Origin: Candidatus Zhuqueibacterota bacterium
GTDB lineage: Bacteria; BS750m-G25
Assembly: GCA_016783505.1 (NCBI GenBank)
Contig: JADHWK010000060.1
Coordinates: 1 to 13,217 of the forward strand
Direction: 5' to 3'
DNA: 13,217 nt
Numbering within the stretch: position 1 is the first letter of the stretch; every line of letters begins with the position of its first letter. This document shows positions 3,214 to 11,335 of this stretch, one piece after another. Position numbers and translations under genes: made by a program. Under the pieces are notes generated by a model. The model made no database searches, was not told the DNA's origin, and saw only the letters and a list, made by a program, of their open reading frames with translations.

Positions 3214-4722
3214 TTATCTTCTCGACTTAACCGGAGGTTTACTTTTTCCTGATGGCGGTTTCTTGTCCGTCTTGGGGGATGGTTTTTCAGCAGGCTTTTC
3301 CACCGGCTTCGGCGTGATCTTGCGCTTGATCTCCTCCCTTTTTGGCTTGGGCTTATACACTACCCCCTTGTTTTTAGCAGTGGATTTAATGGTCTCCCGC
3401 AGGATGAGGTCCAGGTTATTCTCTTTGGCAGTTCCCCGCTTTTTCGTCAAACCACTCAGTTTGTCCCGGGAGGAACGGACGTCGGTCTCCTCCACTACCC
3501 GGGTAGAAGGCTTGCTGGCGGGGTGTTTCTCCCCGGAAAAGGCCTTCGCCTTACTCAGAAAGAAATCATCGGAGGTCTTTTCGGCAACCCTATCTTCCTC
3601 AGCCGCAATGTAAACCCTATCACCCTCATAGTAGACGGGCTTCTCTTTCCCAGCATCGGTCAGGTAGACTTCACGGTAGGTCAGGAAGGCGAAGTTGCCG
3701 TTGGTCTTTCCCGAAACATACTTGTAAACATCCACACCCTCCTGGGAAATACCGCTGCAGGCGATGGTATGGATGCTGATGTGACGTTTGTTCGCCTCTT
3801 CCATCTCCTTACGATAATCATAATCGTCCCGGTAGTCCATATGGGGTGGGGCGTCCCCGATTAAAAAGGCGATCTTGCTCACCCCAGGCCTGAGATCCCA
3901 ATCCATAGACCAGATGGCCTCATGGAGGGCCTCGTTAACACTTTCCGGGTCATCCCCCCCACCACTGGCAGCGATCCCGTTCAGGTGGTTGATAAAAGCC
4001 TGAACATCCTCAGTTAGGCGAAATTTTTTAACGATATAAGGGTCGCCACGGTCCTTGTAGTCCACCATGCCGTAGCGGACCACCGGGGGCGGGATTCCCT
4101 GGCGGATGTCGTCCACCATCGTCCGAATGCGCTCCTTCACGGCGCTGATCTCGTCCCCCATGGAGCCGGTGGAATCGAGGATGAACACCACATCTATGTG
4201 GGGGGATTGGGGTGAAGTCCCGGCTTCCGTAATCTCCACCCCCATAAGGTCGGCGATCAGGCGGGTGGTCAGTTGATCGACCATATCAAAGATCCCCTCA
4301 ATCTTGCTCCCAAAGACCTTCTCAGCATGAATAATGGACCCGCTTTTTACCTCCAGAATGTGGGCATCTAACCGGACCTTCTTACCCCCGGTGGTTAGAC
4401 TGCCCAAGATCAACAGATCAGCGCCGATCATCTCCCCTACCGAAAGGGCCTGATTGTCCTCAATCAGCCCCGTCTGTCCCAGCTCCAGTTCCTCCAGGGC
4501 TTTCCCCAGCCTCTCCCGCTCCACCACGTTGATCCCCGATACACCGGAGATGTCGGTGATGATCATCTCGGCGATCCCTTCCCCTAAATAGTCCAGCTCA
4601 TCGGTAGCATGATTAATCTTGAAATTGAGAACCGCAACATTAGTCCCCCCCGCAAAGCCGATATTCAGGCGCAAGAGGAATAGCAGAGTCAGGGGAATAA
4701 CCGCCCAAAATCTTGGTTTCAT
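3214..4722 (-). CDS. Secreted CsgG/TolB-like plus von Willebrand factor A protein with basic proline-rich tail
   Basis: A 502-residue exported protein. The Sec signal peptide is residues 1-24 (MKPRFWAVIPLTLLFLLRLN...). Residues 27-165 form a CsgG/FlgO-type domain: VAVLNF start, LGEGIAEMIITDIS, VVERERLGKALEELELGQTG, GADLLILGSL. Residues 176-350 form a VWA domain with a complete MIDAS motif DSTGS (183-187), a GGGDDPE loop (254-260) and IGDAPPH (288-294). The last 150 residues are Lys/Pro-rich and low complexity. I chose ATG 4722 over the in-frame TTG at 4734 because the TTG overlaps the GGAG ribosome binding site, which sits 6 nt before the ATG. Role: probably a periplasmic or surface protein with metal-dependent ligand binding. 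No partner operon gene is adjacent downstream. Confidence 0.85.
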   Translation of the reverse strand: MKPRFWAVIPLTLLFLLRLNIGFAGGTNVAVLNFKINHATDELDYLGEGIAEMIITDISGVSGINVVERERLGKALEELELGQTGLIEDNQALSVGEMIGADLLILGSLTTGGKKVRLDAHILEVKSGSIIHAEKVFGSKIEGIFDMVDQLTTRLIADLMGVEITEAGTSPQSPHIDVVFILDSTGSMGDEISAVKERIRTMVDDIRQGIPPPVVRYGMVDYKDRGDPYIVKKFRLTEDVQAFINHLNGIAASGGGDDPESVNEALHEAIWSMDWDLRPGVSKIAFLIGDAPPHMDYRDDYDYRKEMEEANKRHISIHTIACSGISQEGVDVYKYVSGKTNGNFAFLTYREVYLTDAGKEKPVYYEGDRVYIAAEEDRVAEKTSDDFFLSKAKAFSGEKHPASKPSTRVVEETDVRSSRDKLSGLTKKRGTAKENNLDLILRETIKSTAKNKGVVYKPKPKREEIKRKITPKPVEKPAEKPSPKTDKKPPSGKSKPPVKSRR

Positions 4723-4765
4723 TTTGGACTCCAATTTTATTCTTTTATCCTATTTGCAACACTCT

Positions 4766-4793
4766 AATTTAATAAAATAATCGGAAATGTCAA
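4766..4793 (-). promoter_or_regulatory. Likely sigma70-type promoter of the CsgG/VWA gene
   Basis: On the minus strand TTGACA (4793-4788), a 16-nt spacer, then TAAATT (4771-4766) stands about 40 nt before the ATG at 4722. The -35 box lies just downstream of the displaced copy of the PP-loop gene 3' end, in sequence that still aligns with CTTGATAT beyond that gene's real stop. Confidence 0.5.
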
Positions 4794-4807
4794 GAGGGGT
4801 TTAAATA

Positions 4808-4851
4808 AAATCCTCATTTTATCTAATTCACCATCATTCAGGGACCTAACG
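4808..4851. repeat. Direct repeat, left copy: displaced 3' end of the PP-loop ATPase gene
   Basis: Forty-four bases match 10303-10346 at 38 positions (86%) in the same orientation and without gaps. Four of the six differences are transitions. Read on the minus strand in the gene's frame it gives VRSLNDGELDKMRI, against VRPLDDDKLDKMRI in the intact gene. Here the stop is lost, and a 4-nt gap is needed to extend the alignment further. The right edge coincides with the final attC core site GTTAGGT (4850-4844). Confidence 0.85.
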
Positions 4852-4970
4852 GACTTGCGCTTCAGCAGCGAGTCTCCGATACATCTGTTCTAATCCTTTA
4901 TCTCGTTTACCAATTGTCTTCATTGCTGGAACGGGCCGTCATTCCCGTCTGCTGCAGGCGCTTGTTATGC
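4844..4970 (-). repeat. attC site of the HEPN-like cassette (127 bp)
   Basis: Minus strand: R'' is GCATAAC (4970-4964) and R' is GTTAGGT (4850-4844). Inner arms AAGCGCCTGCAGCAG and CTGCTGAAGCGC pair with small bulges. It starts 7 nt after the stop codon of the 4977-5966 gene. It is the last attC in the array, and the sequence directly after its core is the duplicated 3' end of the PP-loop gene. Confidence 0.8.
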
Positions 4971-4976
4971 ATAATA

Positions 4977-5966
4977 TTATTTAAGAATTTCTATTAGAGA
5001 TTCAGCGGATGATAAGGCTTTGTTGGCTTGTCCTTCCCCAATATCAATTAAGTTCTGATGAACCGCCTTGTTTCTCAGTGTAATCGATTCTAGCATATTA
5101 TCGTAGACCATTTTATGCGTAGAATTCTCCTCATCAAGTAACTGAATTACTTCCACAGACATCAGGTAATGCAGATCGACCTTACTGGATAGTTCATTAA
5201 TTTTAGTCTTTGATACACCGCGAGTTTCCCAGGCATTCTTCACAGAATTGATGATAACAGGTTCAATGGCTGTGATTACGTCAATTAGACAATTACGGTA
5301 CTGTCCAAGTTCATACCAATATCTGGCAGAATTCATCGAAAGTCGTGTTGAGTTCAAATACTTATCATCAGCAAGTATGAGACGAAAATCGTTATGTGCT
5401 TTCAAGGGCAATGCATACTTCGCTTTTCTCATATCCAAATTCATATTTAGTCTGAACTTTTTTTCGTCGATGTTAGCCAGCCTCAGTACGCTTCTAAAGG
5501 GGAGATCTCTGAGTGTAGGCTTATAATATTCTCCAGAACAAATTCGATATTTCTCAATGAATTCATTTATCACACGCTTTATTCGTTTATAGAGTCTTTT
5601 CTCCTTTTTCTCCTGTTCATCTTTATCATCAAGAAATAATATTTCGTTCGAGGACCAAAAAATCTCTAGAATCGTTTTTCTAAAATGATCAGTATCATCA
5701 CGAATATACTCCACATTTCTCCCAATAAAATTCTGAAGAAAATCGGAATGATCTCCTGAAAATGACGGAGTTAGGAGACCCAATGATGTTGGCTTACGAT
5801 TTGGATCGTCTTCGTAATAATCAATATTGATGCTACCCTCTGCGTTTTGTGTCCAATAATTATATGTGACGATAGAATATTCCTTACCGTCTACTCTTAT
5901 GCGGTATTCATCATTTTTTAAACGAAGAGAAAAAGGAAGATTAGTTGTCAGTGAATATCTGATCAT
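4977..5966 (-). CDS. Cassette-borne protein with a HEPN-like C-terminal motif
   Basis: A 329-residue soluble protein not assignable to a named family. The N-terminal half is beta-rich and acidic, and a strongly charged helical stretch follows (DEQEKKEKRLYKRIKR, about residues 115-130). The C-terminal third is helical, with a YRNCLIDVITAIEPVI helix and then a second helix ending SITLRNKAVHQN. R298-N299...H303 fits the Rx4-6H signature of HEPN domains, which are often metal-independent RNases in defence and toxin systems. The layout (long variable N-terminus, C-terminal HEPN) resembles ApeA-like HEPN proteins, an inference from motif and order only. The ATG has AAGGA 9 nt upstream. It fills one cassette; its 27-nt leader resembles that of the next cassette. 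Confidence 0.75.
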   Translation of the reverse strand: MIRYSLTTNLPFSLRLKNDEYRIRVDGKEYSIVTYNYWTQNAEGSINIDYYEDDPNRKPTSLGLLTPSFSGDHSDFLQNFIGRNVEYIRDDTDHFRKTILEIFWSSNEILFLDDKDEQEKKEKRLYKRIKRVINEFIEKYRICSGEYYKPTLRDLPFRSVLRLANIDEKKFRLNMNLDMRKAKYALPLKAHNDFRLILADDKYLNSTRLSMNSARYWYELGQYRNCLIDVITAIEPVIINSVKNAWETRGVSKTKINELSSKVDLHYLMSVEVIQLLDEENSTHKMVYDNMLESITLRNKAVHQNLIDIGEGQANKALSSAESLIEILK

Positions 5967-5987
5967 CTGATTAAATCCTTTTATGCA

Positions 5988-6114
5988 TAATAACGCCCGG
6001 CATCACCAGTGGGCAGGGGAAACGGGACTTAGTCAATGGTAATTAAATACCAAACTTGGAAAAAGTCTTTAAACGCCACAACCCTGCCCATCTGGTGCAT
6101 GGCGTTGTTATGCC
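5988..6114 (-). repeat. attC site of the unknown-protein cassette (127 bp), variant core
   Basis: Minus strand: R'' GCATAAC (6114-6108) is followed by AACGCC and CACCAGATGGGCAGGG. The opposite arm is CCCTGCCCACTGGTG then GGGCGTTATTATGC. The arms pair over more than 20 positions. The core reads GTTATTA (5994-5988) instead of GTTRRRY. Compared with the GTTATGC core at 7452 it looks like a 3-bp insertion (GTT-ATT-ATGC). Confidence 0.8.
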
Positions 6115-6150
6115 ATCTTAATATCCCATATCGCAGAAACGTTTATAGAA

Positions 6151-7428
6151 TCACAGTATTGGCACATAGTCAGATTCAGCGTCAGTAATGAGTTGAAAAA
6201 CATGTTGCAATGCAACATCACTCTTAGAAGGATTCTCAAAAAGAAGACTGAGCAATAAGCTTGCACTGCTGGTCGCTAAACCCCCAATAAGGGAGGATAT
6301 AGGTTCTCCGGTAGTTGCGAAAGTTCCAATGACCCCACCACCAAAACTTAGGCCAGCTGTTTTCACTTTTGACCCCAATGAGTGCTTTGATATCCTTTCC
6401 TTAAGATGGAAGGAGAGTTCTGGTATTTCTTTTTTTGCGATGCGCGAAAAAGAGTTTGGACTTCCAATGTCCACAGTATCCAATATCTTTTCTAACTCAG
6501 ACCGCCACATGAAGAATGTATCGTTATCTTTATGTAAATCAGTTACTTCTCTCGCAGATAAATCGACTATGGAGGGTAAACGACAAGCTGACAGAACAAG
6601 ATCTTGCCGGACACCAAATTTGAAAGGCTTGAATGCACGTCCTGCTACCAATCCTTTTGCGACATACAATGCTGCACCAAATAGACCTTGAAGCACAATT
6701 TCGTAACCCTGTTGATCACAATAGAGCAGTCTTGCATTAAAAAAACGCCTATTAAGATTATCCTTACCCCTTGCAATATCAAGAAGGCCACAAAATGCTT
6801 TAGCCTGTTCAACGGGTAGATTTTCGAGAACAATCTTCTCTGCTTCATCAAGTACGTGTAAGTGATTATCGTCAAGTTCACAGAGAGCGTCACATTCAGG
6901 AGTACGAGTTATTGGGACGCTATAGCCGCTCGGAAATGTCTCAATAAGGCCGGTATTTAACAAAGGACGCATTCGAGCCCAAAAACGAAGAGCATGTTTA
7001 AGAACGGTGTCACCCAATCTTCTTGAGGCTTGTGCGGAAGTAAGTTTCAAGGTGTTCGCCCATGCTGGAGCTTCATAAACTGATGATGTTAAAGGTTCAG
7101 AAACCGCTACCGCATCATAATACAAAAGATACTTAAATATAGCGTTACCGACTTCATGTAATGGCTTGTAGTAGTTTTGACCGCCTGCAAATTCATGAGA
7201 AAGCCAAGCACTCATATCACGTGTATTAAACATTTCAAGAAATGCTACTCTGCGATCATTATCTGAAGAAGTACTCTCATATTGTTCACCACTGCTTAAA
7301 ATCAGGTCTCGAATATCGTCTATTTGGTTTGTGGAGACCTTATCAAATGTAATGTTTGGCGAGATTTTCTGATCGACTATTCTCTCTATCTCGCACAATT
7401 GCTTTTCCCACCAACATTTTTGTTTCAT
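6151..7428 (-). CDS. Cassette-borne uncharacterised protein with C-terminal Gly-rich hydrophobic segment
   Basis: A 425-residue protein that I do not recognise. Most of it is a soluble alpha-helical region with several Trp and Cys and no nucleotide-binding or nuclease motif that I can see. Near the C-terminus, residues 357-397 form a Gly/Ala/Ser-rich hydrophobic stretch (GLSFGGGVIGTFATTG, then SSLIGGLATSSASLLLSLLF) able to span or insert into a membrane as a hairpin. A 28-residue tail follows. Such a segment at the end of a soluble protein is seen in membrane-acting effectors, but nothing here proves that role. The ATG has AAGGA 9 nt upstream and lies 23 nt after the cassette start. It is framed by attC sites at 7446-7521 and 5988-6114. 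Confidence 0.75.
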   Translation of the reverse strand: MKQKCWWEKQLCEIERIVDQKISPNITFDKVSTNQIDDIRDLILSSGEQYESTSSDNDRRVAFLEMFNTRDMSAWLSHEFAGGQNYYKPLHEVGNAIFKYLLYYDAVAVSEPLTSSVYEAPAWANTLKLTSAQASRRLGDTVLKHALRFWARMRPLLNTGLIETFPSGYSVPITRTPECDALCELDDNHLHVLDEAEKIVLENLPVEQAKAFCGLLDIARGKDNLNRRFFNARLLYCDQQGYEIVLQGLFGAALYVAKGLVAGRAFKPFKFGVRQDLVLSACRLPSIVDLSAREVTDLHKDNDTFFMWRSELEKILDTVDIGSPNSFSRIAKKEIPELSFHLKERISKHSLGSKVKTAGLSFGGGVIGTFATTGEPISSLIGGLATSSASLLLSLLFENPSKSDVALQHVFQLITDAESDYVPIL

Positions 7429-7445
7429 TGATATTAATCCTTAAG

Positions 7446-7521
7446 GCATAACGTGCCGCATAACCGGCTGGTAAAGTAGCGCAGCGGATTTACCAGTCCG
7501 AGTTAATGCGGTTGGTTAGGT
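7446..7521 (-). repeat. attC site of the NTPase/Mrr cassette (76 bp)
   Basis: Minus strand: R'' ACCTAAC (7521-7515) and R' GTTATGC (7452-7446). The inner arms pair as ACTGGTAAA with TTTACCAG, extended by AACCGCATTAA with GGTTATGCGG, around a 13-nt terminal loop. The stop codon of the cassette gene (TAA 7518-7516) lies inside R''. This is the shortest and most regular attC here. Confidence 0.88.
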
Positions 7522-8649
7522 TTTGAGATCGTTTATCCATTGATTAAGAGAAATGTAATCCCTCAATTGCATTTGGTGTTTCACTTCTTGTTGGAATTCT
7601 TTAGCGCCTCTAGTAAAGCTTGAAGTTGTAGCTATGATGCCAGCAGTAGCTTTTTCTAATTGGACAATGCCATATAAAGATCTTACAACATCAACTTGGA
7701 CCTTGTTCGTCTTTGCGTACCTTTTACATTCCACAAGGAAAAGAAATCGACCAATCTCATCAGAACGAGCAGCGTATATATCAACACCACCATCTTTGGC
7801 TGGAGGTGTGAGGGTGATCTCATAACCAAGCTTATTAAGGAGTTCAGCCACCAGTCGTTCAAAATCCCTTGGGCTCAATGTGTACATTAGCTCTGGATTT
7901 TTCGTTACTTCACGGTAAAGCCTCTCCTCGAGATACTCAGACACCTCTACAATTGGTTTTGGCAGGGCAATAGATGGATCATATGGAACACCATCAGGGC
8001 CTATAATCCCTGGCTCTCTAAAAGGTTGAAGGTCTCTTATTAGCTCATTCCATGAAAGCAGACCTTCTCGAATCGTCGATGCACCCAACGATAGAAATAA
8101 AGGATGCCCTTTTACGTAATTGAAATATTTTTTTGCGGAATCTTCATTAATCAAGGCCAACCTTTTTCTCAAGAGCTCGTCCCATTCTGTATGAGAAAAA
8201 CCCTCAAGACGAACATTTACACTACCTAGCATTTGAACAGGGAGCTGAGTTTGAGAAACAATTATACAGTTTAAATTTATGTTAGCTGAAAGTTCATGAT
8301 TTAGTTGGTCAAATGCTTTTGGCTTTAGAAAGTGGGCCTCTTCTAAAACAAGCAAAGAGCGTTTTGTAGTGTCGAGTTTCCTTGTTTTGGGTAGATCATC
8401 TAAGACCGCACCCCAATGGGCATATGTAACCTCGATGCCCCCTGGAAAATCAGTTTCGTGCATACGCCAAAATTGATGAACAAGCGAGGTTTTGCCAATA
8501 CCAACTCTTCCGGTCACAATCACAACCTGAATGGTATCACTGAGCAGAGATTTTTCAAGGATACCAAGCTCTTTTGCCCTACCCACAAAAGTACTTTCAC
8601 TGGCTGGCACTGCCTCTGTTGCTGTAAGGTGTAAACGTTCAAATTGCAT
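7516..8649 (-). CDS. Cassette-borne STAND-type P-loop NTPase fused to an Mrr-family restriction endonuclease
   Basis: A 377-residue two-domain protein. Residues 20-210 form a P-loop NTPase: FVGR box (21-24), Walker A TGRVGIGKTS (46-55), Walker B LLVLEEAH (99-106), and a GHP motif (181-183) typical of STAND/NB-ARC-like ATPases. Residues 256-360 match the Mrr catalytic domain: SPRDFERLVAELL, LGYEI, DGGVD (286-290), ECKRY (308-311) and an ATTSSFTRGAKEF segment. Asp290 with Glu308-x-Lys310 gives the PD-(D/E)xK active site. It is likely a nuclease gated by nucleotide-dependent sensing, hence a defence protein, although no target can be read from sequence. Leader is only 16 nt with no strong Shine-Dalgarno sequence; the core's own TTAGG may substitute. 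Confidence 0.9.
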   Translation of the reverse strand: MQFERLHLTATEAVPASESTFVGRAKELGILEKSLLSDTIQVVIVTGRVGIGKTSLVHQFWRMHETDFPGGIEVTYAHWGAVLDDLPKTRKLDTTKRSLLVLEEAHFLKPKAFDQLNHELSANINLNCIIVSQTQLPVQMLGSVNVRLEGFSHTEWDELLRKRLALINEDSAKKYFNYVKGHPLFLSLGASTIREGLLSWNELIRDLQPFREPGIIGPDGVPYDPSIALPKPIVEVSEYLEERLYREVTKNPELMYTLSPRDFERLVAELLNKLGYEITLTPPAKDGGVDIYAARSDEIGRFLFLVECKRYAKTNKVQVDVVRSLYGIVQLEKATAGIIATTSSFTRGAKEFQQEVKHQMQLRDYISLNQWINDLKT

Positions 8650-8659
8650 TGGTTTTCAA

Positions 8660-8789
8660 ACCTAACGATTGCATAACCTGCGCGAAAGATTAAGGTCACG
8701 GAGCGTTGCACAACCACAGAGCTTCGAAGAATGCACCGAGCTCTGGAATCACGTTACAGCTTTCGCGTCAGGTTGATGCGATGTTAGGT
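8660..8789 (-). repeat. attC site of the nuclease-like cassette (130 bp)
   Basis: Minus strand: R'' ACCTAAC (8789-8783) and R' GTTAGGT (8666-8660) are exact complements. The arms continue ATCGCATCAACCTGACGCGAAAG against CTTTCGCGCAGGTTATGCAATC, nearly fully paired apart from single extrahelical bases. A long variable terminal structure follows. This is the textbook attC of the window and the strongest evidence for the array. Confidence 0.93.
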
Positions 8790-8844
8790 ACTCGTTATAG
8801 GATGCATTTTCTGAAAATTAATCCCAGCTTCATTCAATAAAGTA

Positions 8845-9846
8845 TCACAACGCAACCATTTTAAAATCTACAATAGCTTTTTTGAAAGGTTCAATTAATT
8901 CGAATGGCAATGTTTTGTATGCCTGTCGATTGACCCAGAAAATGGGTTCTGCGCTCCATTTTTCTGCAAATAAAATCGCTGAGAGATTTTCTAACAATTG
9001 ATGGTTAGTTTCATCCTCCAGACAATTATTGACTACGTGTTGGAAATCGGAATCACTTCGAGCGTCATGCGTACTGTACAAAACAACTACGTTGGTTTCA
9101 CCCTCTATAAGTTGTTCAGTCTTGGTCTTCAATTTTGTCCAAATCTCCTTAAAGCCATAGGGAATCTCTGAAAGTACAGTCCGGTTTTGTTTGAAGAACA
9201 AGTCGTTGTACAATTCCTCATCTGTTCGCAATCGTGTAAATTCTATATAGATATATTCGTTTTCAAAGTCTAGTTGATAATCAGGCCCTTTAGTTTTCAC
9301 CGTCGGATAAAAAGTTAGTTTTCGAATCCCTTCGATTTGTCTCATAAGCCCAACCGCAAACTTCCCTTCAAAAAATAAATCCTCGAATTGTAAAGAATCA
9401 CCAACATTAGCACGAAGCTTCTTTTGAAAAAGGTGTAGGTTGTTTACTTCCAATCCTTCGAGCTGCTCGGTTAATTGTCTCAGGCCATGTTCATGAGCAA
9501 TGACGAAAATTGCTTTCTGTCTAAGATTTGCTGGTAAATCACAAAATTTACTTAAGAGTTTGATATTGGATTTAATCTCTGTTAGACTTGAAACGAATTC
9601 TTTATAATTTGATTTGGATTGAAGTTCATCGATCAATATTTCCTGTTTTTGAGAATCACATAAAAGAGAGCCTAGCCATATCTCTGGTTTTTCTGAATCA
9701 AAGTCAGTCAAGATTGAACGGACATCCGAAAAATTTCGGTACAATTGTAAATTGTTAAGAAGGATAAATAGGTTGCGAAGTTCATCTCCCTTTGATTTTT
9801 TGATTGATTTCTTGAATCTTCCAAATGTTACATTATGGTGATCCAT
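8845..9846 (-). CDS. Cassette-borne uncharacterised protein with a nuclease-like core
   Basis: A 333-residue soluble protein of unknown family. The first 180 residues are helical and charged. Residues 183-206 then read VKTKGPDYQLDFENEY followed by IYIEFTRLR. This is a 'G-P-D ... hydrophobic strand with E-x' layout (Asp189, Glu202) as in PD-(D/E)xK nucleases, but the expected Lys after Glu202 is Thr204, so activity is doubtful. After a helical segment comes a strand VVVLYSTHDARSDSDFQHVV, and the C-terminus has FWVNRQAYKTLPFEL. The ATG has AAGGAG about 11 nt upstream, rather far. It is the first clear cassette, starting 48 nt after the core at 9895 and ending 55 nt before its attC. Confidence 0.75.
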   Translation of the reverse strand: MDHHNVTFGRFKKSIKKSKGDELRNLFILLNNLQLYRNFSDVRSILTDFDSEKPEIWLGSLLCDSQKQEILIDELQSKSNYKEFVSSLTEIKSNIKLLSKFCDLPANLRQKAIFVIAHEHGLRQLTEQLEGLEVNNLHLFQKKLRANVGDSLQFEDLFFEGKFAVGLMRQIEGIRKLTFYPTVKTKGPDYQLDFENEYIYIEFTRLRTDEELYNDLFFKQNRTVLSEIPYGFKEIWTKLKTKTEQLIEGETNVVVLYSTHDARSDSDFQHVVNNCLEDETNHQLLENLSAILFAEKWSAEPIFWVNRQAYKTLPFELIEPFKKAIVDFKMVAL

Positions 9847-9888
9847 TCAAATCTATTCTCCTTAAAGAATCAATCCATAAGTTATCGT

Positions 9889-9895
9889 ACCTAAC
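9889..9895 (-). other. Integron core site GTTAGGT opening the array
   Basis: Minus-strand GTTAGGT (9895-9889) stands 43 nt before the ATG of the first cassette gene and fits the 1R consensus GTTRRRY. I found no matching RYYYAAC partner upstream, so it may be the edge of an attI-like or degenerate attC site. Confidence 0.6.
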
Positions 9896-10302
9896 CTAGG
9901 TTTCGGTGTACTAATACAAAACGCAAACACGGCAAATCTGGCCGTATAAACTCAGATAAGAATTACCAGAAATGAGCAATTAATTAACTATAAAATAAAT
10001 AGCTAAGCTAAGGCGGTCTCTACACCTTCTCAAGTTTATACGGCTTAAAAATGGCATATAAATCCCCAAGATTTTCTTTCGAAATCAATTATTAATCAGG
10101 CTGATTCTATTTATTATACGTCAAAATGAGGCATGTAAACCTAAGAGAAATGTTTGTGATAATATAATTCAAGATATATAAAAAAATTGAATAGACTATA
10201 ATTTCACATTGTAAAGGCTTTAATTGTCCCGCAGAGGCCGGAGCCCCTACGTGACAGTAAAATTAGTTTGCTTGATCTACTTTCTTATATCAAGAAAAAT
10301 TT
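9896..10302. other. Gene-free stretch between the PP-loop gene and the first cassette
   Basis: About 400 bp with no plausible ORF. It contains a 12-bp inverted repeat (9941-9952 and 10033-10044, core GCCGTATAAAC) with roughly 80 nt between arms. It also holds an imperfect 13-bp hairpin (arms 10226-10238 and 10243-10255, 10 of 13 pairs) without a T-tract. Bounded by GTTAGG cores at 10345 and 9895, it has the size of a non-coding cassette, but I could not build a proper attC from the inverted repeat. Confidence 0.5.
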
Positions 10303-11335
10303 AAATCCTCATTTTGTCTAATTTATCATCATCAAGGGGCCTAACGTTAAATCGTTCACTCCCTTCCGGGCCATCCCCTTTTACCAAAATTGAGGACTGG
10401 TCCTTATCTTTACTGTAGCGGGCGGCGATAGAGGCTGCTGTTTTCTTTAATTCGTCATTGACGGGGCCAAAAAGCAATACCAGTCCCCCTGGATGTTCGA
10501 CTGTCTGAAAAGCCCAACAGTTGTCCTGATACCTTTCCAAGAACAGGTTTTCCTTTTCATTCCGACCCACTATCACCTTTGCCGCCGGGCTCAGCCGAAA
10601 ATGTCGTCCCACAGCCAAAAGATAAACCTCCTCCTGGGTAAGCACTTTTGCCTCCCGGTGATCCAGAAGGTCCCGGAACCGGGCGGCGTAGTGCTCATCG
10701 GTGAGGAAGCAGCACCCTCCCGCCGGCTGGGGGAAATCGGTAAGGCCAAATTTTTGGGCCAGTTCGATCTGTCTCTTACGGGATCGTCCCTGTATGTCGT
10801 AGAGTCCATCTGGGTCAATCCAGCCTTCCTTCTCCGGAATCGTAGGCCTAAGCAATTTAGCCGACAGGGGCCGCAACAGATATCCCCTAAGACCGGCTTC
10901 CCTTTCGATGGTGTTCATCACGTCCCGGCGCTGTGACATGGGCCGCTGGCCCAGCACCTCACCGGTAAAGACAAAGGAGGCTCCCTCAAGCTCCATTCGC
11001 CTTTTCGCCTCCCGTAACATGTGAATGCGGCAGTCAATGCAGGGGTTCATCTGCGAGCCGTAGCCGTGCCGGGGATGGGTCACCATCTTCAGGTAGTCTT
11101 CTGAGATGTCCACGATGTCCACTTCAACGCCCAGGTCCCTTCCGGCCCTCAAGGCCTCGTGTCGAACGGGCTGGTCCTTTTGTCCGGCAAAAACCTTCTT
11201 CAACCCGACGATACAGAAACCGGTATAGAAGTGGACACCTTTAACATCAACACCCTGATTGAGGAGGACCCTGGCCGCCAGGGTGCTGTCAAGACCCCCG
11301 GACAAAAGACCGATGGCTTTGATTTTTTTAGCCAA
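10301..11335 (-). CDS. PP-loop (N-type) ATP pyrophosphatase, ThiI/2-thiouridylase-like
   Basis: A 344-residue cytoplasmic enzyme. PP-loop SGGLDS is residues 12-17, followed by GVHFYTGFC (Cys41), MNPCIDCR (Cys99/Cys102), FTGEVLGQRPMSQ (123-135) and PAGGCCFLTDE (205-214). This is the layout of tRNA-thiolation PP-loop enzymes, which adenylate a substrate and transfer sulfur. The likely role is tRNA or cofactor thiolation; the substrate cannot be told. The start is TTG, overlapping the stop of the cNMP/FHA gene by 8 nt. No ATG exists before codon 84, and the PP-loop must be included. The codons for V331-R332 form a GTTAGGC integron core, and the 44 bp from there to the stop are duplicated at 4808-4851. 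Confidence 0.85.
   Translation of the reverse strand: MAKKIKAIGLLSGGLDSTLAARVLLNQGVDVKGVHFYTGFCIVGLKKVFAGQKDQPVRHEALRAGRDLGVEVDIVDISEDYLKMVTHPRHGYGSQMNPCIDCRIHMLREAKRRMELEGASFVFTGEVLGQRPMSQRRDVMNTIEREAGLRGYLLRPLSAKLLRPTIPEKEGWIDPDGLYDIQGRSRKRQIELAQKFGLTDFPQPAGGCCFLTDEHYAARFRDLLDHREAKVLTQEEVYLLAVGRHFRLSPAAKVIVGRNEKENLFLERYQDNCWAFQTVEHPGGLVLLFGPVNDELKKTAASIAARYSKDKDQSSILVKGDGPEGSERFNVRPLDDDKLDKMRI
10303..10346. repeat. Direct repeat, right copy: intact 3' end of the PP-loop gene beginning at a GTTAGGC core
   Basis: This is the coding end of the PP-loop gene (VRPLDDDKLDKMRI and stop). GTTAGGC occupies 10345-10339 on the minus strand and satisfies the integron 1R consensus. Right of 10346 the sequence has no similarity to the flank of the left copy, which is attC. 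On the other side, weaker similarity continues for about 20 bp past the stop. Confidence 0.85.

Follow-up and report, generated by a model that had tools for sequence, protein, structure and literature searches.

A degenerate integron at the end of a PP-loop ATPase gene, with an integrase-less attI-like platform carrying four cassettes

How did the 3' end of a PP-loop ATPase gene come to stand on both sides of an array of integron cassettes? The question is raised by a window of 13,217 nucleotides, the whole stretch of DNA that was analysed (contig JADHWK010000060.1, assembly GCA_016783505.1, Candidatus Zhuqueibacterota bacterium), from an assembly of approximately 2.5 Mb that is 60% complete and comprises 89 contigs. 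The PP-loop gene (10301..11335, minus strand) was identified from the open reading frame list and a family search and is complete, ending in ...RFNVRPLDDDKLDKMRI. A repeat search of the window confirmed the original observation that a 44-nt core recurs with 38/44 identity, and the direct repeat as a whole spans 49 nt, 41 of which are identical (84%), between 4803-4851 and 10298-10346. The runner-up ungapped pair within the window reaches 32/49, or 29/44, and the repeat is present exactly twice in the 2.5-Mb assembly. The direct repeat is real and far above chance. Weak similarity extends it to roughly 65 nt with a gap; a separate test for duplication past roughly 49 nt was not significant. Among 85 homologous gene loci, none has a second gene-end copy scoring above 30/49.

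As predicted, each copy opens with GTTAGG on the minus strand. In copy 1 (10298..10346, minus strand; assigned from the repeat search and homologue C-termini), the core GTTAGGC at 10345-10339 forms codons V331-R332 of the PP-loop gene and opens its 3' end. In copy 2 (4803..4850, minus strand), GTTAGGT at 4850-4844 doubles as the R' box of attC4, the last attC site, and the copy continues as VRSLNDGELDKMRI and then reads through. Downstream of the crossover G of an integron, the next six bases are part of the DNA that follows. As the R' box of attC4 is at the same time the start of copy 2, the right end of the array joins PP-loop coding sequence at the crossover, and the predicted right junction was thereby resolved to a single base, the IntI crossover G^TTAGG (4850).

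The protein was used to evaluate which copy represents the normal gene end. It consists of a ThiI/MnmA-type ATPase and a C-terminal NFACT-R_2 domain, and the match to the latter reaches profile position 102 of 104. The C-termini of homologues, the nearest of which are approximately 50% identical, read ...PL....RI up to the stop, with the nearest, L003, ending in KVKPLDRNLLDKFRI before its stop. Because NFACT-R_2 is complete and the C-termini of the homologues match, copy 1 is the normal gene end; aligned to the homologues, it fits their C-termini and supplies the gene with a normal one. Copy 2 has a P to S exchange at a conserved proline and no stop at the homologous place. The sequence behind the last attC site is therefore the displaced PP-loop 3' end in decayed form, and both proposals on the nature of the copies stood.

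The right-hand flank is formed by a CsgG/VWA gene (3214..4734, minus strand; open reading frame list and family search). Immediately behind copy 2 lies a promoter-like TTGACA-16-TAAATT (4766..4793, minus strand), recognised by consensus match only, which is probably the promoter of this gene and suggests that copy 2 is in its old neighbourhood. Neither adjacent PP-loop and CsgG/VWA genes nor an empty site were found among the related genomes examined, and a survey for recurrent cassette insertion at the same codon, which had been suggested as a check, found no attC sites across 1.02 Mb surrounding 89 homologue loci. Elsewhere in the window, three AT-rich genes at 457-2113 (32% GC, one a TIGR04255 member) look like a separate foreign insertion. 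An Rfam search returned nothing relevant.

The 5.5 kb between the repeat copies holds four cassettes in one orientation, with attC sites on the minus strand. Cassette 1 (8666..9894, minus strand) has an open reading frame at 8845-9846 for which no family was found, and attC1 at 8660-8789. Cassette 2 (7452..8665, minus strand) encodes a fusion of an AAA ATPase with an Mrr-type nuclease (7516-8649) and ends at attC2 (7446-7521), while cassette 3 (5994..7451, minus strand) carries an open reading frame at 6151-7428, again with no family found, and attC3 at 5988-6113. Cassette 4 (4850..5993, minus strand) has an open reading frame at 4977-5966, the protein of which gave no family match above the cut-off, and attC4 at 4844-4970 with R'' GCATAAC and R' GTTAGGT. 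Two of the products invite comment on their own account: the cassette 2 fusion protein resembles candidate anti-phage systems and is defence-like, and the cassette 4 protein (4977-5966) has an RNKAVH motif reminiscent of HEPN nucleases.

Single strands of attC1, attC2 and attC3 fold far better than shuffles (z -4.4, -4.0 and -5.2, respectively), and the search that recovers them gave zero matches in shuffled sequence. attC4 is imperfect in that whole-site folding is weak (z -1.0); it scores 43 bits in an attC model of which it is itself a training site. The model was built from seven sites, those of the window included, and its matches to these sites are therefore by construction. Pairs of cassette 5' end and R'' were read by inspection for cassettes 2 to 4 as TTAGGT/ACCTAAC, TTATGCC/GGCATAAC and TTATTATGCA/TGCATAAC, the last of which carries a 3-nt insertion. 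No integrase open reading frame or Pfam integrase match is present in the window. The locus thus has what defines a CALIN, that is two or more foldable attC sites with R''/R' boxes, complementarity of cassette 5' ends to R'', cassettes in a single orientation and no adjacent integrase. Unlike a CALIN, the array starts at a recurring attI-like platform and has copies of a gene 3' end on both sides.

A direct repeat of a gene 3' end around foreign DNA, with an inner copy that restores the gene and the old end at the far side, is the usual picture of islands placed by phage- or ICE-type tyrosine integrases, with the PP-loop 3' end serving as attL and attR. This picture is matched at the locus as far as the repeat and the restoring inner copy are concerned. 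However, the interval has no integrase gene of this kind and is itself an integron array, and the shared DNA begins, to the base, at the crossover of an attC site, which is an integron core. An island of this type is largely refuted and is the least probable of the explanations considered.

In a circular cassette the 5' end is complementary to the R'' of the cassette's own attC site. The R'' of cassette 1 is GTACCTAAC, and the matching 5' end, G^TTAGGTAC, is found at 9895, where the run of complementarity is 9 nt versus 6 nt at the PP-loop core. The array had been predicted to start at the in-gene GTTAGGC (10345); the cassettes proper instead begin with G^TTAGGT at 9895. The intervening 450 bp or so (10345-9896) contains no attC site and was rejected as a first cassette, as its inverted repeat is without attC boxes. 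It is composed of copy 1, approximately 110 bp of unique DNA (10181..10297, minus strand, with no relative detected) and a dispersed genomic repeat. The unique segment is possibly an eroded intI remnant; a test of 10297-10180 for such a remnant detected none. The dispersed repeat is the attI-like platform (9889..10180, minus strand), which ends in AAACCTAGG^TTAGG with the crossover after G9895. As the segment that follows the in-gene core is not a cassette and contains this platform, cassettes alone, which had been assumed responsible, did not replace the gene end. The end was replaced by a platform with its cassettes or by a crossover that involved the platform.

Copies of the platform were sought by searching the assembly with 9896-10297. 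Partial copies were found on C69 (two, C69a and C69b), C11, C73 and C37, making at least six together with that of the window. The platform is palindromic and differs in length among copies, which align up to ...AAACCTAGG (...CCTAGG) and diverge beyond. In five of the six (window, C11, C37, C73 and C69b) it directly abuts the first base of a cassette, with junctions G^TTATACA (R'' TGTATAAC) on C11, G^TTAGCTGGC (R'' GCCAGCTAAC) on C37, G^TTAGCGC (R'' GCGCTAAC) on C73 and G^TTAGA with an imperfect R'' at C69b. Runs identical to the complement of R'' span 9 nt in the window, 8 on C11, 10 on C37, 8 on C73 and 6 at C69b. The best-matching GTT was the platform end at all five loci, among 17-61 GTTs at each, although at C69b it was tied with one other at 6 nt; the chance of this is approximately 1e-8 if all GTTs are equally likely, a value that is optimistic given the tie. 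The displaced right halves behind the arrays on C11, C37 and C73 all read GTTAGGC. The remaining copy, C69a, has a full GTTAGGC, reading CCTAGGTTAGGC, and no attC site was found downstream of it, on which account it may be an empty site.

Since first cassettes enter at the platform-end G^TT in five copies, the platform behaves like attI, and we deduce from these junctions that it is a putative attI-like docking site. As in known integrons (PMC2426708, PMC12444791), there is one fixed G^TT entry point and, on C11, a linked intI remnant. Unlike a known attI, the platform recurs in at least six similar, scattered copies that have no integrase, and a first cassette is present in five. A limited literature search found no report of dispersed attI platforms. 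Duplications of gene ends flanking the copies on C11, C37, C73 and C69b were also looked for and none was convincing, the weak candidate on C11 being reached by 1.5% of shuffles. As these four are without convincing flanking duplication, the event in the window is separate from the general mode by which platforms move.

Relics of the integrase were found elsewhere in the genome. On C11 the platform is preceded by the remnant of an IntI N-terminus (57% over 35 aa, E 9e-10, against the copy on C44), and the C11 and C44 intI remnants share 74% DNA identity over 103 nt; on the account of this linkage the platform would represent an eroded intI-attI module. At the platforms the C11 N-terminal remnant is the only one found, and none is detectable in the window. 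The intI on C44 has an internal deletion, a TIGR02249 match at the N-terminus and recognisable C-terminal sequence, and C44 also carries a second platform type in two copies. Similarity between the window-type platform and an attI beside the C44 remnant was tested and was not significant. Two modules, each combining a deleted intI with this second kind of attI-like end (GATGGATATACTTAGG^TT), lie there within a single array (L106/L157, 2866-3308 and 5314-5545). An intact integrase is absent from the 60%-complete assembly, and further attC sites are present on C53, C44, C17 and C39, with a candidate on C72. By these matches the genome is rich in putative integron relics. Pseudogenes of intI are common, genomes with multiple or decayed intI genes have been described (PMC2426708, PMC12444791) and several integrons in one genome are known (PMC2426708).

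Several of these loci have features of their own. C11 (L121, 1-9341) has an exact 111-nt terminal overlap that would close it into a circle of 9,230 bp, holding ABC transporter-like genes (judged from translations), one platform and one cassette; either the circle is real or the assembly looped at a repeat. On C82 (L107, 6600-12320) a cassette array lies directly behind a XerA/IntI-like tyrosine recombinase fragment that is oriented toward the array, with a tRNA-Ala gene nearby. C39 (L159, 1-6085) is a 6-kb contig with four attC candidates and appears to be nearly all cassettes. The array on C37 (L123, 10450-10760) stops roughly 210 bp short of a tRNA-Sec gene.

The dispersed repeat could also be read as a transposable palindromic element that is a favoured target of cassettes, with the duplication in the window stemming from its own transposition. 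The palindromic structure, the variable length and the other loci that are without convincing flanking duplication agree with this. On the other hand, an intI remnant adjoins the C11 copy, the copies end at the cassette crossover and the apparently empty copy has a full GTTAGGC box, leaving such an element improbable.

We describe the locus as a degenerate integron, in which an integrase-less attI-like platform at the PP-loop 3' end is loaded with four cassettes. The best explanation, to which we assign a probability of roughly 55%, is that IntI recombined the platform with the core of a diverged PP-loop allele. In the simplest such event, the platform would have lain behind an intact PP-loop gene end, and a now-eroded IntI would have recombined it, either as attI before loading or through the last attC site, with the GTTAGG core at codons 331-332 of another PP-loop allele, diverged by some 14%. 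In the product, the left-hand gene end (copy 1) would be the one from the platform side and the right-hand end (copy 2) that of the target itself, after which copy 2 would have lost its function and decayed. A crossover at the PP-loop G^TTAGG is indicated because it is otherwise difficult to see why the displaced half-site coincides with the PP-loop core. The arrival of copy 1, the direction and the order of events are what we infer, as no empty or intermediate relative was found. For two alleles to cross over, there must have been a second, diverged chromosome or DNA coming in from outside. IntI recombines secondary GTTRRRY sites, attI x attI-like reactions included (PMC10127599).

Insertion of cassettes into attG sites is also published, as cited in PMC12901181 and PMC12444791. 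As far as these citing texts describe it (Loot et al. 2024; Recchia 1994 and Francia 1993, as cited), attG or secondary-site insertion resembles the locus in that the last attC site meets coding sequence at G^TTAGG and the displaced half of the target lies behind the array. It differs in that the left side of the target joins a second gene-end copy and then the platform instead of a cassette. In fact, the two halves of the core do not flank the cassettes, the right half being behind attC4 while the half at 10345 joins DNA that is not a cassette. Repair could account for this if cassettes entered the PP-loop core, cutting off 13 codons, and homologous DNA from a relative, with an intact PP-loop end and the platform downstream of it, recombined with the locus afterwards, the right crossover falling at the shared GTTAG. 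Published attG insertion and ordinary homologous recombination would suffice, and the scheme would account both for two diverged copies and for a normal copy 1. This needs two events, however, the second with a crossover exactly at the platform G^TT, where IntI puts cassette 1 anyway, and we consider it unlikely.

Two diverged gene ends could be present in one genome without exchange between strains if the PP-loop gene once had a tandem paralogue, cassettes entered the GTTAGG of the second copy and the integrase brought about a deletion from the platform end that took out the remainder of this second copy. Deletions between IntI sites would be plausible. Neither a second PP-loop gene nor a further gene-end copy was found in the assembly, and the deletion would have to be precise, sparing only the sequence after GTTAGG; we regard a paralogue as unlikely too, slightly more so than repair. 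The platform may, as a tentative and minority reading, once have been an integrative element, a circle with intI, attI and a spare PP-loop 3' end directly behind attI. IntI would have integrated this circle at the PP-loop GTTAGG, restoring the gene much as phages restore tRNA genes, with the cassettes loaded later and the integrase decayed.

Integron integrases are viewed as cassette engines, and attI as a fixed neighbour of intI. In this genome, related attI-like platforms stand at six or more separate sites and five are loaded with a cassette; the outer junction of one falls within the coding sequence of a gene, whose end is found in duplicate on the two sides. Taken together, the junctions form a natural series from which attI could be defined in a deep-branching lineage. 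If the platform entered the gene via IntI, integrons can spread docking sites and swap gene ends, which, if true, bears on the origin of integrase-less arrays.
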